6,947 nucleotides of DNA from Caldisericota bacterium (GTDB lineage: Bacteria; Caldisericota; JANLFM01), in the NCBI GenBank assembly GCA_024655865.1, contig JANLFM010000046.1, positions 1-6,947 on the forward strand. Reading direction: 5' to 3'. The notes below the pieces were generated by a model. The model was given only the letters and a program-made list of their open reading frames with translations, was not told the origin of the DNA and did not search any database. Shown in pieces: positions 2,473-6,947 of the stretch. The position numbers were made by a program, and so were the translations under genes. Position 1 is the stretch's first letter, and each line of letters opens with the position of its first letter.

Positions 2473-3207
2473 TTATTCTGTGATTGCTAAATAGATCTCT
2501 TTCAAAGAAGGATCCAGGATCTCTACTTGGGCATTCTTCACAATCTGGGACTTGAATTCCTCCCAGAGTTGATTGAGTTTCTCCTGAGAGGCTTTTTGAG
2601 CTAATATTTCCGGGGAAACGTTTCCCCACTCCGGGTGTTTGGCTTTTAACGCCTCTATCTCCTCAGGAGTGGGTGGAGGCACATTTACACTTTGTCTGAA
2701 GCTTTCCCCCAAGCGGTTCATGGTCAGCACAGTGCGTGAGGCCTTGGCTACTTCCTCCCAGTATTCCTCCTCGCTCAAGCCCTGAGACTTGAGGAGCTCG
2801 TGAAAGAATTCTTTGCTCTCTGGTACGACTTGAGGAGATTCCATGATCGCCCTCTGTTCCTGGGCATATTTGCGGGCTTCCTCCTCGCTTACCAGAAGCC
2901 CTCTCTTGACTGCTTCGCTGTAGAGAGCTTTATCCTCAATTATCTTGCGCAGGGTCTCCTTTTTCACCTCCAGGTCAGACATTCCGGAATTCTGGGGATT
3001 CAGGCGAATGGTGAGATACCACATTGTCCAACATTTTTCCGTAGCAGGCTCGCCGTTGACCGTCAAAATTACTCGATCGCTGGCCTGTTTCAAGTTTTCC
3101 CCAACAATTCCCGCAAGCGAAGTAGCCTCAAGATTTCGATAAATAATAATCCCTGCTATTCCCAGGACCGCTATTGCGGCTAAGAAGATAGGCTTTTTGA
3201 GCTTCAT
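2473..3207 (-). CDS. Membrane-anchored SurA-N-like foldase without a parvulin domain
   Basis: The 244-residue product has one N-terminal membrane segment (residues about 6-23, IFLAAIAVLGIAGIIIY) and then a soluble, helical, Glu/Lys-rich domain outside the membrane. VILTVNGEPAT (about 47-57), followed by a helix, DLEVKKETLRKIIEDKALY and SEAVKRGLLVSEEE, is the typical pattern of the SurA N-terminal / trigger-factor C-like chaperone fold. The parvulin peptidyl-prolyl isomerase domain found in PrsA and SurA is absent, so a chaperone rather than isomerase role is expected. The gene follows Z' by 26 bases and probably shares its transcript. It may assist folding of the exported X and Z proteins; this is inferred from position only. 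The ribosome binding site is weak (AGGTTGGA before ATG). Confidence 0.75.
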   Translation of the reverse strand: MKLKKPIFLAAIAVLGIAGIIIYRNLEATSLAGIVGENLKQASDRVILTVNGEPATEKCWTMWYLTIRLNPQNSGMSDLEVKKETLRKIIEDKALYSEAVKRGLLVSEEEARKYAQEQRAIMESPQVVPESKEFFHELLKSQGLSEEEYWEEVAKASRTVLTMNRLGESFRQSVNVPPPTPEEIEALKAKHPEWGNVSPEILAQKASQEKLNQLWEEFKSQIVKNAQVEILDPSLKEIYLAITE

Positions 3208-3233: not shown

Positions 3234-3689
3234 CTATAAATCGCTTTCCAGGAACGCCCTCGGAGGAAACTCATTCATGGGAAGCCACAGAGTGTATTTA
3301 ATTTTTGTTGAAAGATCCGGTTTGATTACTATCCAGGTTTCCCGGTCTACTTTAACCTCAATTGATCCCATATCAATAAACTTGTAGTCGTTCTCAGCTT
3401 TTAGTGAAAGTTTGTATTCTCCAGGAGGGATATTCCCTGTGCTTGCGAAATTAATTTCTCCCGCAGGAGCTACACTCAATTCCTGAACTCCATTTAACCA
3501 GACCTCCACTGTAGATGTACTGGTATTATATACGCAAAGGTTCCCCGGCAAAGGATAACCTCCAGGTGAAGTAGTGGGTGAACCGAAGGGAAAAATTCCT
3601 GCGGGAATAAGAACCAGATAGACGATAAGGAAGGTCAGAAAACCTCCCCCAAGAAAAGACAGGATCCCCACCGTTAAAATCTTCTTCAT
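3234..3689 (-). CDS. Z': anchored extracellular beta-domain protein
   Basis: This 151-residue protein has a single hydrophobic segment (residues about 4-30), a Gly/Pro/Ser linker (SPTTSPGGYPLPG), and then a beta-rich domain starting LCVYNTSTSTVEVWLNG. It is a clear paralogue of Z at 4669-5136 and 6141-6608; shared landmarks are YNTSTST, the VW-NGV strand, EYK-SLK, ETW-IIKPDLS and a closing TRW/TLW-LP/SPNE. The domain has the look of small Ig-like or DUF4397/PEGA-like domains, but I cannot assign it. GGAGG stands 6 bases before the ATG. It lies 27 bases after X2 and 26 bases before the foldase gene, so it is the middle gene of a likely operon. Confidence 0.75.
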   Translation of the reverse strand: MKKILTVGILSFLGGGFLTFLIVYLVLIPAGIFPFGSPTTSPGGYPLPGNLCVYNTSTSTVEVWLNGVQELSVAPAGEINFASTGNIPPGEYKLSLKAENDYKFIDMGSIEVKVDRETWIVIKPDLSTKIKYTLWLPMNEFPPRAFLESDL

Positions 3690-3716: not shown

Positions 3717-4190
3717 TCAAGGATACCACATAGATACTGTTCCCCATACATTAATATTATAGGCGCCGGCATTGTATATCCAAATTTGAAATGCTCTTCC
3801 CAGTTGGGGATACCAGGTAAAGCTTCCAACACCGCCATAGAATCTTCTCAAAAAGACAAAATTTCCTGGCTCACCTACATAGTTTATAAAGACATCAATT
3901 GGCCCCAGCGTACCTCCAGCTAACAACTTCCAATTTACAACAACTGAGACGCCATAGTTTACTCCATCGGAACCAGAATAAGTAAATTCTCCACCAAGGC
4001 CTTGGGCTCCAGAATAAAGAGTTAGGTAGTTTAGAGGATAATCAAGATGCCAAATTAATGGTTCCAGGTAATCTGGAGAGACTTTAGAGGGAACAGCGAT
4101 TTGTTGCTTTGCCATAACGGGTGTGGCCAGAGTCAGGAGGGTTGCCAGAACCAAGAACACGCTTACCGCTTTCCATAACACTCTTCCCAT
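3717..4190 (-). CDS. X2: secreted beta-rich protein, mosaic paralogue
   Basis: The ATG at 4190 is chosen because GGAGG stands 5 bases before it; a TTG four codons upstream overlaps that binding site and is unlikely to be the start. The product is 157 residues. The signal peptide has a hydrophobic core at about 8-22 and likely cleavage after PVMA (27). The mature part is beta-rich and aromatic, ending in FYGGVGSFTWYPQLGRAF and NVWGTVSMWYP. The first 80 codons are identical in DNA to the copies at 5662 and beyond; from 3948 downward the sequence diverges sharply although the protein stays homologous. No known family is recognised. It leads a likely operon X2, Z', foldase, perhaps reading through to the 5S gene. 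Confidence 0.75.
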   Translation of the reverse strand: MGRVLWKAVSVFLVLATLLTLATPVMAKQQIAVPSKVSPDYLEPLIWHLDYPLNYLTLYSGAQGLGGEFTYSGSDGVNYGVSVVVNWKLLAGGTLGPIDVFINYVGEPGNFVFLRRFYGGVGSFTWYPQLGRAFQIWIYNAGAYNINVWGTVSMWYP

Positions 4191-4222
4191 TTTTGCCTCC
4201 AAAAGAATTTAAGGTCTTCATG

Positions 4223-4251
4223 TTTTTAGAAGGTCTTAATAGTTTTGTCAA
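4223..4251 (-). promoter_or_regulatory. Promoter of X2 operon, with AAGACCTT repeats
   Basis: On the minus strand a consensus TTGACA (4251-4246) is followed after 17 bases by TAAAAA (4228-4223), a four-of-six match to the -10 box. A transcript would start about 25-30 bases before the ATG at 4190. AAGACCTT occurs twice on the minus strand, at 4237-4230 (just inside the spacer) and 4218-4211 (just after the -10 box), 19 bases apart. Such paired direct repeats flanking a -10 box could bind a repressor. Confidence 0.6.
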
Positions 4252-4263
4252 TTAGGGAAATCC

Positions 4264-4440
4264 CTACCTTTTACCTTTGGCTTCCGCTTTCTTGGCCATC
4301 TCGCTATAGGAGAGAACAATTGCCTCTGCCCTTCTTGGTACCCCCAGCTTATGGTAAATACTCGTGAGGTATTTCTCCACAGTTTTCTCGCTGACGCTGA
4401 GAACCATTGCTATTTCCTTATTGCTTTCTCCTTGGAGCGA
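4264..4440 (-). pseudogene. LuxR/NarL-type HTH remnant, copy 1
   Basis: The frame ending with TAG at 4266-4264 encodes GESNKEIAMVLSVSEKTV, EKYLTSIYHKLGVPRRAEA and then a Lys-rich tail. This is a nearly complete LuxR/NarL DNA-binding domain, with the expected S-N-K-E-I-A, V-S-x-K-T-V and KLGV-xR-xxA positions. It has no usable start: the same frame meets TAG about 24 bases upstream of the HTH part, and the first ATG is inside the HTH. A possible linker fragment, KRKLERSKNPEPLTA, lies at 4670-4626 next to the end of Z. If so, about 180 bases of unrelated sequence separate the two parts of the regulator. It may once have been a response regulator controlling the X promoter 13 bases downstream. 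Confidence 0.65.
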
Positions 4441-4668
4441 TGACTTCCTTCCACTGGAAAGAACCTACGAGATAAAATGTGTCCCATGTTTCCCCGAAAA
4501 ACTCCTCATCCCAAAAATCCTGAGAATTGGGCTAACACCCTCAGCTTTCGGGCTAGGAAAGAAAAGTTTTTCGAAAAATTTCCTCTAACGCCCCTCGCCT
4601 TGAGCATTCTCATTCATTATGTGCACGCAGTCAGCGGCTCAGGGTTCTTCGAGCGTTCAAGTTTACGC
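4441..4668. other. Non-coding stretch between Z and the HTH remnant
   Basis: No gene is supported here. The only structure I see is a 12-bp palindrome TTTTTCGAAAAA at 4567-4578. The sequence may have split the LuxR-type gene. The same stretch recurs at 5913-6140. Confidence 0.4.
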
Positions 4669-5136
4669 TTAATCTCTCCTTGAAAGATCCATAAGCACTT
4701 GGTTAATTTCATTAGGAGATAGCCATCGGGTGTAAGCGATTTTCACCGAAAGATCGGGCTTAATTATCAGCCAAGTCTCTTTGTCTGGCTCCACCCTCAC
4801 CAGCCCAATCTCTCGAAAGGTAACTTCCTGAGGAATCTTCAGGGAAACCTTGTACTCTTTGGGAATAAGGGGAGAGGTGTTATTTGAAATACCCACAGGA
4901 CTTTCTTGTGGTTTGGGGTCCACAGTAACCTCAGGCACCCCATCAACCCAGATTTCAATGGTGGAGGTACTGGTATTATAGACAAAAAGCGCTCCAGGGA
5001 AAGGAGAACCATTGGGGGAAACGGAAGGAGTATAGAATAGGTAAACATTGGCTGGCAAAAGTACCAAATAACTCAAAACCAGTCCCAGGATAATCCCGGC
5101 AAGGACAAGGAATACGGGGAGAACTAATTTTCTCAT
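4669..5136 (-). CDS. Z: anchored extracellular beta-domain protein, copy 1
   Basis: This 155-residue protein has an N-terminal membrane segment (residues about 4-28, very rich in Leu and Val), a SPNGSPFPG linker, and a beta domain beginning LFVYNTSTSTIEIWVDG and ending IIKPDLS, TRWLSPNE. It resembles Z' throughout. AGGAAGGT precedes the ATG at normal spacing. The gene begins 9 bases after the stop of the full-length X1 reading frame, so X and Z are probably translated as a pair. A frameshift in X1 moves its stop back to 5225 and could weaken that coupling. Its function is unknown; a surface-exposed partner of X is the simplest guess. Confidence 0.72.
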   Translation of the reverse strand: MRKLVLPVFLVLAGIILGLVLSYLVLLPANVYLFYTPSVSPNGSPFPGALFVYNTSTSTIEIWVDGVPEVTVDPKPQESPVGISNNTSPLIPKEYKVSLKIPQEVTFREIGLVRVEPDKETWLIIKPDLSVKIAYTRWLSPNEINQVLMDLSRRD

Positions 5137-5145
5137 TTTACCTTC

Positions 5146-5662
5146 CTAATCAAACCACATGGAGACGGTTCCCCATGCGTTAATGTTATAAGACCCTAAA
5201 TTAGTGATCCAAACCTGAAAAGGTCTATTCAGCTCTGGGTACCAGGTAAAACTTCCTGTACCCCCATAAAATGTCTTTGACAATACAGCGGCAGTGGAGC
5301 CACGGTAGTTGATCTTTACCAGTATTGGACCCAGAGTCGCTCCAGGTGGGGGAGCGAAAAGGCTCCAATATACCGTTACGGTATATTGGAGCGAAAAGGC
5401 TCCAATATACCGTAACGGTAACGCCATAGTTTACTCCATCGGAACCAGAATAAGTAAATTCTCCACCAAGGCCTTGGGCTCCAGAATAAAGAGTTAGGTA
5501 GTTTAGAGGATAATCAAGATGCCAAATTAATGGTTCCAGGTAATCTGGAGAGACTTTAGAGGGAACAGCGATTTGTTGCTTTGCCATAACGGGTGTGGCC
5601 AGAGTCAGGAGGGTTGCCAGAACCAAGAACACGCTTACCGCTTTCCATAACACTCTTCCCAT
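5146..5662 (-). pseudogene. X1: secreted beta-rich protein, frameshifted by a fold-back insertion, copy 1
   Basis: Translation from the ATG at 5662 (GGAGG upstream) gives the same signal peptide and first 80 residues as X2, then VTVTVYWSLFAP. A 37-bp insertion within 5351-5420 then shifts the frame; the product ends at 5225 as a 145-residue protein with about 53 foreign residues. The original C-terminal half remains intact in another frame down to the TAG at 5148-5146 (PPPGATLGPILVKINYRG to NAWGTVSMWFD). Removing 37 bases gives a 159-residue protein, close to the 157 of X2, and aligns it throughout. The fault is therefore one event and the rest of the gene is conserved. It could also be a reversible off state. 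Confidence 0.7.
5371..5420. repeat. 22-bp perfect inverted repeat (hairpin) inside X1, copy 1
   Basis: The arms 5371-5392 and 5399-5420 are exact reverse complements around a 6-base loop GAAAAG. A second inverted repeat with 15-bp arms (5362-5376, 5378-5392) overlaps it. The same stretch also holds a direct repeat of 33 bases with one mismatch (5351-5383, 5388-5420). Together they mark a fold-back copy of adjoining X1 sequence. Confidence 0.92.
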
Positions 5663-5694
5663 TTTTGCCTCCAAAAGAATTTAAGGTCTTCATG

Positions 5695-5723
5695 TTTTTA
5701 GAAGGTCTTAATAGTTTTGTCAA
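5695..5723 (-). promoter_or_regulatory. Promoter of X1, same as at 4223-4251
   Basis: The identical TTGACA, 17-base spacer and TAAAAA recur here within the tandem unit, with AAGACCTT repeats at 5709-5702 and 5690-5683. Each X gene copy thus has its own promoter, so array length should scale with X and Z expression. Confidence 0.6.
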
Positions 5724-5735
5724 TTAGGGAAATCC

Positions 5736-5912
5736 CTACCTTTTACCTTTGGCTTCCGCTTTCTTGGCCATCTCGCTATAGGAGAGAACAATTGCCTCTG
5801 CCCTTCTTGGTACCCCCAGCTTATGGTAAATACTCGTGAGGTATTTCTCCACAGTTTTCTCGCTGACGCTGAGAACCATTGCTATTTCCTTATTGCTTTC
5901 TCCTTGGAGCGA
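5736..5912 (-). pseudogene. LuxR/NarL-type HTH remnant, copy 2
   Basis: This copy is identical to that at 4264-4440, with the same upstream TAG and no start codon. The identical damage shows that the gene was already broken before the 1472-bp unit was duplicated. Confidence 0.65.
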
Positions 5913-6140
5913 TGACTTCCTTCCACTGGAAAGAACCTACGAGATAAAATGTGTCCCATGTTTCCCCGAAAAACTCCTCATCCCAAAAATCCTGAGAATT
6001 GGGCTAACACCCTCAGCTTTCGGGCTAGGAAAGAAAAGTTTTTCGAAAAATTTCCTCTAACGCCCCTCGCCTTGAGCATTCTCATTCATTATGTGCACGC
6101 AGTCAGCGGCTCAGGGTTCTTCGAGCGTTCAAGTTTACGC
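5913..6140. other. Non-coding stretch, repeat of 4441-4668
   Basis: This is the second copy of the stretch between Z and the HTH remnant, with the TTTTTCGAAAAA palindrome at 6039-6050. No gene is seen. Confidence 0.4.
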
Positions 6141-6608
6141 TTAATCTCTCCTTGAAAGATCCATAAGCACTTGGTTAATTTCATTAGGAGATAGCCATCG
6201 GGTGTAAGCGATTTTCACCGAAAGATCGGGCTTAATTATCAGCCAAGTCTCTTTGTCTGGCTCCACCCTCACCAGCCCAATCTCTCGAAAGGTAACTTCC
6301 TGAGGAATCTTCAGGGAAACCTTGTACTCTTTGGGAATAAGGGGAGAGGTGTTATTTGAAATACCCACAGGACTTTCTTGTGGTTTGGGGTCCACAGTAA
6401 CCTCAGGCACCCCATCAACCCAGATTTCAATGGTGGAGGTACTGGTATTATAGACAAAAAGCGCTCCAGGGAAAGGAGAACCATTGGGGGAAACGGAAGG
6501 AGTATAGAATAGGTAAACATTGGCTGGCAAAAGTACCAAATAACTCAAAACCAGTCCCAGGATAATCCCGGCAAGGACAAGGAATACGGGGAGAACTAAT
6601 TTTCTCAT
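6141..6608 (-). CDS. Z: anchored extracellular beta-domain protein, copy 2
   Basis: The encoded protein is identical to that at 4669-5136, with the same ribosome binding site and the same 9-base distance from the end of X1. It is one of at least two gene copies made by the tandem duplication. Confidence 0.72.
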   Translation of the reverse strand: MRKLVLPVFLVLAGIILGLVLSYLVLLPANVYLFYTPSVSPNGSPFPGALFVYNTSTSTIEIWVDGVPEVTVDPKPQESPVGISNNTSPLIPKEYKVSLKIPQEVTFREIGLVRVEPDKETWLIIKPDLSVKIAYTRWLSPNEINQVLMDLSRRD

Positions 6609-6842
6609 TTTACCTTCCTAATCAAACCACATGGAGACGGTTCCCCATGCGTTAATGTTATAAGACCCTAAATTAGTGATCCAAACCTGAAAAGGTCTAT
6701 TCAGCTCTGGGTACCAGGTAAAACTTCCTGTACCCCCATAAAATGTCTTTGACAATACAGCGGCAGTGGAGCCACGGTAGTTGATCTTTACCAGTATTGG
6801 ACCCAGAGTCGCTCCAGGTGGGGGAGCGAAAAGGCTCCAATA

Positions 6843-6892
6843 TACCGTTACGGTATATTGGAGCGAAAAGGCTCCAATATACCGTAACGGTA
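6843..6892. repeat. 22-bp perfect inverted repeat inside X1, copy 2
   Basis: The arms 6843-6864 and 6871-6892 repeat the hairpin of 5371-5420. The outer end of the right arm again coincides with the end of the 1472-bp unit. Confidence 0.9.
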
Positions 6893-6947
6893 ACGCCATA
6901 GTTTACTCCATCGGAACCAGAATAAGTAAATTCTCCACCAAGGCCTT
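6893..6947. repeat. 1472-bp tandem direct repeat, start of unit 3
   Basis: The last 55 bases repeat 3949-4003 and 5421-5475 exactly. The array therefore continues past the window or the contig ends inside it, so the true copy number is unknown. Confidence 0.9.

Follow-up and report, generated by a model that had tools for sequence, protein, structure and literature searches.

How does a gene come to contain text that runs forward, turns back on itself and then runs forward again? The gene X1 of a Caldisericota bacterium raises this question, as it carries such a fold-back mid-gene, with a net gain of 37 bases. Did these bases arise in the cell, in the tube or in the assembly, and what did they do to X1?

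The window and its genes

The window, i.e. the whole stretch of DNA that was analysed, is one complete contig (G000:C40) of 6947 bp. It belongs to a draft genome of 1.82 Mb in 63 contigs that is 96% complete, and comparisons within this genome cover the 1.75 Mb examined. Exported-protein-like genes lie on the minus strand of the window in the pairs Y0-X0 and Y1-X1:

3234-3689, minus strand: Y0, paired with X0
3717-4202, minus strand: X0, intact and diverged paralogue of X1, lacking the insertion (ORF list, comparison with X1)
4264-4407, minus strand: short LuxR/GerE-type frame (Pfam)
4669-5136, minus strand: Y1, paired with X1
5146-5674, minus strand: X1, forming the second pair with Y1

Pfam gave no family for X0, the 3' part of X1 or Y. 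The LuxR/GerE-type frame spans only profile positions 27-56 of 57; a longer frame with helix-turn-helix text resembling it is found at 375-656 of contig C36 (L019). A SurA_N-like protein (PF13624) at 2473-3207 of the window adjoins the exported-protein array, and a protein that is similar to it, as judged by eye, is likewise array-adjacent at 7624-8400 of C36. Furthermore, neighbouring genes or spacers have stretches of about 120 nt in common (96-99% identity) while they are diverged elsewhere, both in the window (901-1030/1745-1874) and on C36 (4955-5071/5843-5959 and 566-684/1839-1957), which suggests repeated partial duplication or conversion within exported-protein arrays. Close to the start of the contig, positions 21-53 form a perfect hairpin with 16-bp arms and a 1-nt centre.

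Sequence of the fold-back and its rarity in the genome

On the plus strand, positions 5351-5420 begin with GGAGC GAAAAG GCTCC AATAT ACCGT T ACGGT ATATT and continue with GGAGC GAAAAG GCTCC AATAT ACCGT A ACGGT A. A 15-nt segment is thereby arranged forward, inverted and forward, and the turning points are two mini-hairpins, GGAGC-6-GCTCC and ACCGT-1-ACGGT:

5351-5420, minus strand: whole fold-back, an inverted micro-triplication with a net gain of 37 bp (sequence read, repeats, model fit)
5362-5376, plus strand: segment S, forward copy 1, GCTCCAATATACCGT (sequence read)
5378-5392, minus strand: segment S', inverted middle copy, ACGGTATATTGGAGC (sequence read, triplet scan)
5399-5413, plus strand: segment S, forward copy 2 (sequence read, triplet scan)
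5371-5420, no strand: perfect hairpin with 22-nt arms (5371-5392/5399-5420) and a 6-nt loop (hairpin scan, folding)

The hairpin is predicted to be very stable (-28.2 kcal/mol, z -10.9), and direct repeats of 33 nt with a period of 37 and one mismatch run through the same positions. An earlier sequence-only reading had stated that GGAGC-CTTTTC-GCTCC on the minus strand can fold back, with the text behind it exactly reverse-complementary to the text ahead of it, and that the original text then resumes as a second copy; reading the sequence confirmed both points.

No longer perfect hairpin occurs in the 1.75 Mb of the own genome, and the fold-back provides the only forward-inverted-forward triplet with repeats of at least 10 nt. 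Chance is therefore excluded as its origin. Outside C40, 31 triplets were counted at word length 8, one at 9 and none at 10, and a 400-kb sample of the relative G008 contained two at word length 10 and none at 12. The uniqueness of the fold-back in 1.75 Mb at word lengths of at least 10 speaks against a dispersed repeat and against an artefact common in this assembly, so that it is neither; a query of 141 nt matched this contig only. Short triplets within 120 nt are, on the whole, about 4-5 times commoner in the own genome outside C40 than in locally shuffled sequence (250 vs 55 for words of 7 nt, 31 vs 6 for words of 8 nt).

Effect of the insertion on X1

As 37 equals 1 modulo 3, the insertion shifts the reading frame of X1, which is now divided between two overlapping frames:

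5225-5674, minus strand: X1 5' frame, out of frame past the insertion (ORF, alignment to X0)
5146-5427, minus strand: X1 3' frame, still uninterrupted and alignable with X0's C-terminal half (ORF, alignment to X0)

The first 85 residues of the 5' frame are identical to X0 and similarity extends to residue 95, after which it reads out of phase until a stop codon. From 5427 onwards the 3' frame stays open as far as the natural stop, matching X0 through the C-terminus. As had been proposed, removal of the 37 bases restores the X frame, with the 5' frame tracking X0 to residue 95 and the 3' frame then taking over. In the 3' frame 50 of the 83 aligned residues are identical to X0 (dN 0.34, dS 2.19), and the differences fall mostly on third codon positions (24, 21 and 48 at the first, second and third position, respectively). 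Judged by this pattern, the 3' half of X1 appears to have been under constraint until recently. Because the 3' frame is still open and constrained against X0, the break would be recent, and the fold-back is most likely a real, recent and inactivating mutation of X1.

The ancestral state was also looked for in relatives. Neither a search with X0 across 61 genomes nor an X profile run against 54 genomes of the phylum yielded an orthologue of X1 that could decide it; X0 is free of the insertion, yet as a paralogue it has diverged. Scans of genome contigs and a pattern scan of viral contigs likewise gave no orthologue informative on this state, and in the genomes searched no close relative carries the fold-back locus and no X1 allele free of the 37 bases turned up. 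The nearest match comes from G004 (contig C96, L141, 1432-2138), where an X fragment without the 5' part precedes a Y homologue. The order X-Y is thus conserved in another genus of the family, where X has apparently decayed.

A probable short-range template switch between two mini-hairpins

The ancestor was reconstructed from the paralogue X0 and the reading frame by deleting one 37-bp period; 27 different 37-bp deletions, with starts at 5351-5377, yield the identical sequence. The product was then modelled as ancestor up to point 1, reverse complement from point 2 to point 3, and ancestor again from point 4, with the template within 100 nt. This two-switch (four-point) model has 42 equivalent solutions, all without a mismatch, in which the reverse-copied part measures 11-22 nt. 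It thus reproduces the product exactly from a template within 100 nt and outperforms an explanation by substitutions and linear indels only: with a plain tandem duplication of 37 bp, at least four mismatches remain. The product, the two inverted repeats and the zero-mismatch fit are direct observations. Folding of the reconstructed ancestor predicts only two small hairpins, located at both turning points (-6.6 kcal/mol). In our view, the 37 bases probably stem from a single event of short-range template switching between adjacent mini-hairpins of X1.

The order of the switches and the strand we infer. In the direction of the minus strand, synthesis would run through ACCGT-T-ACGGT-ATATT-GGAGC-CTTTTC-GCTCC, whereupon the GCTCC end would pair with the newly made GGAGC. 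About 11-22 nt would then be copied backwards (AATATACCGTAACGGT). At the second inverted repeat (ACCGT/ACGGT) synthesis would rejoin the first template upstream of the turning point, and the segment between the hairpins would be copied once more, giving the forward-inverted-forward arrangement and, as the net outcome, a +37 frameshift that would inactivate X1.

The switch points follow each other as 4-3-1-2 on the plus strand and as 3-4-2-1 on the minus strand. An intrastrand switch requires point 2 to come before point 1 (PMC7954356), which is the case in the minus-strand direction only, so that the sequence does not fix the strand; the product is identical either way. If synthesis ran in the minus direction, a snap-back of the nascent strand can start the event, whereas the opposite direction needs an interstrand switch. 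Of the intrastrand template switching that the sequence-only reading had put forward, template switching stands as the best explanation, with zero against at least four mismatches and hairpins at both turning points, while the qualifier intrastrand fits synthesis of the minus strand only. In both directions point 4 precedes point 1, an order which tends to look like one large insertion and in which the new duplex must reopen (PMC7954356).

Apparent second copy and assembly loop

The same 37 bases recur at 6823-6892, as positions 3949-5475 and 5421-6947 are exactly identical over 1527 bp. Self-comparison and contig-end overlaps resolve this end of the window as follows:

3949-5420, no strand: assembly-graph loop unit, 1472 bp
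5421-6947, no strand: exact second passage through the loop plus 55 bp (one k-mer)

A third passage of the repeat is cut off by the contig end after 55 bp. At many contig ends a 55-bp word is found that also occurs in other contigs, in several cases as an exact end overlap of 55 bp, and the assembly is therefore a de Bruijn graph with k=55. Contig C22 ends in a similar loop, and the first 55 bp of contigs C25 (L044) and C32 (L051) are the reverse complement of their own last 55 bp, as if each were flanked by an inverted repeat. The last 1472 bp of the window either retrace the loop of 3949-5420 or represent a genuine tandem repeat. The fold-back at 6823-6892 was rejected as independent confirmation, belonging to the same graph loop or exact repeat. 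The loop's exit, absent here, might be found in eight short contigs whose letters are given as N.

Text specific to X1 joins text identical to X0 at 5420|5421, which is the outer edge of the fold-back. As this join abuts the fold-back, the 5' half of X1 is not independently established; it may be X0's own, joined on during assembly, or the product of real recombination. The loop at the contig end and the coincidence of the join with the edge of the fold-back mark this stretch as hard for the assembler.

Alternative origins of the 37 bases

Could the assembly graph itself have built the insertion? Its junctions give rise to 22-mers (31) and 56-mers (66) that are absent from the reconstructed ancestor and from the rest of the genome examined. 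As these words occur nowhere else, the graph could not have built the junctions from other known sequence, and this origin was rejected. It follows, we infer, that molecules with the fold-back junctions existed and won the consensus. Whether they formed in the cell or in the tube is a matter of likelihood. A chimera from whole-genome amplification or library preparation might have prevailed in the consensus where coverage is thin at the contig end, and the fold-back does adjoin the loop of the k=55 graph; multiple displacement amplification (MDA) moreover yields mostly inverted chimeras, primed at complementary ends of 2-21 nt (PMC1855051). Such chimeras are typically single inversions, however, and in more than 85% of cases the inverted junction comes with an intervening deletion (PMC1855051), while the fold-back shows two switches in one molecule, no deletion and both flanks in order, and has no second example in 1.75 Mb. 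That assemblers normally retain the path with better coverage also counts against an artefact. An origin in the tube is therefore unlikely, and an origin in the cell, i.e. a real mutation, is the probable one.

Among real mutations, a plain 37-bp tandem duplication made by slippage and point-mutated afterwards would account for the tandem copies, but it requires at least four extra substitutions, clustered on one flank and fortuitously giving a perfect 22-nt inverted repeat, which makes it barely credible. Hardly more can be said for a functional palindromic element, be it a mobile miniature repeat, a terminator or a reversible switch of X1. The predicted stability of the hairpin would suit such an element, and the direct repeats could permit loss of the 37 bases by slippage through the 27 equivalent deletions. 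Yet the element lies inside a reading frame, every base of it is derivable from the neighbouring text, no other copy exists in the genome examined and none of the relatives searched carries it. A dispersed palindromic repeat (REP/MITE-like) was rejected, as copies were found on this contig only in that genome. It is highly improbable that the mini-hairpins promote gain of the 37 bases and the direct repeats their exact loss; if such a switch did operate, the exported protein X1 would be turned off and on within the population.

Relation to known systems and meaning

The template switch favoured here has the features of the four-point short-range switches described by Loytynoja and Goldman (PMC7954356), namely two switches and a reverse-complement copy of adjacent text, and shares a direct repeat and one apparent insertion with the class in which point 4 precedes point 1. 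That work concerned great ape genomes with ancestors inferred from relatives, whereas here the ancestor comes from a paralogue and the reading frame. Template switching at quasipalindromes in E. coli (PMC7202029) is likewise bacterial: there, too, the polymerase reverses at inverted repeats that are small and imperfect, and the product is an inverted repeat closer to perfection. In its classical form a single quasipalindrome is corrected, while here two neighbours were apparently used and the segment between them was triplicated. Interstitial inverted triplications (ODIRA) share the forward-inverted-forward order bounded by short interrupted inverted repeats, but they depend on an extrachromosomal intermediate and on a large amplicon that contains an origin of replication (PMC4689423), so that for a segment of 15 nt the likeness is geometric only. 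On sequence grounds, the fold-back thus appears to be a known type of short-range template switch that uses two neighbouring quasipalindromes instead of one.

The understanding of the template-switch mechanism is unchanged by this case. For genome analysis, the lesson is that an inverted repeat may be counted double unless assembly-graph loops are taken out first. The locus offers a clean and readable example of a two-hairpin template switch from a little-studied bacterial lineage. If the event took place in vivo, it would have inactivated one of the paralogues in an array of exported-protein genes that is undergoing duplication.
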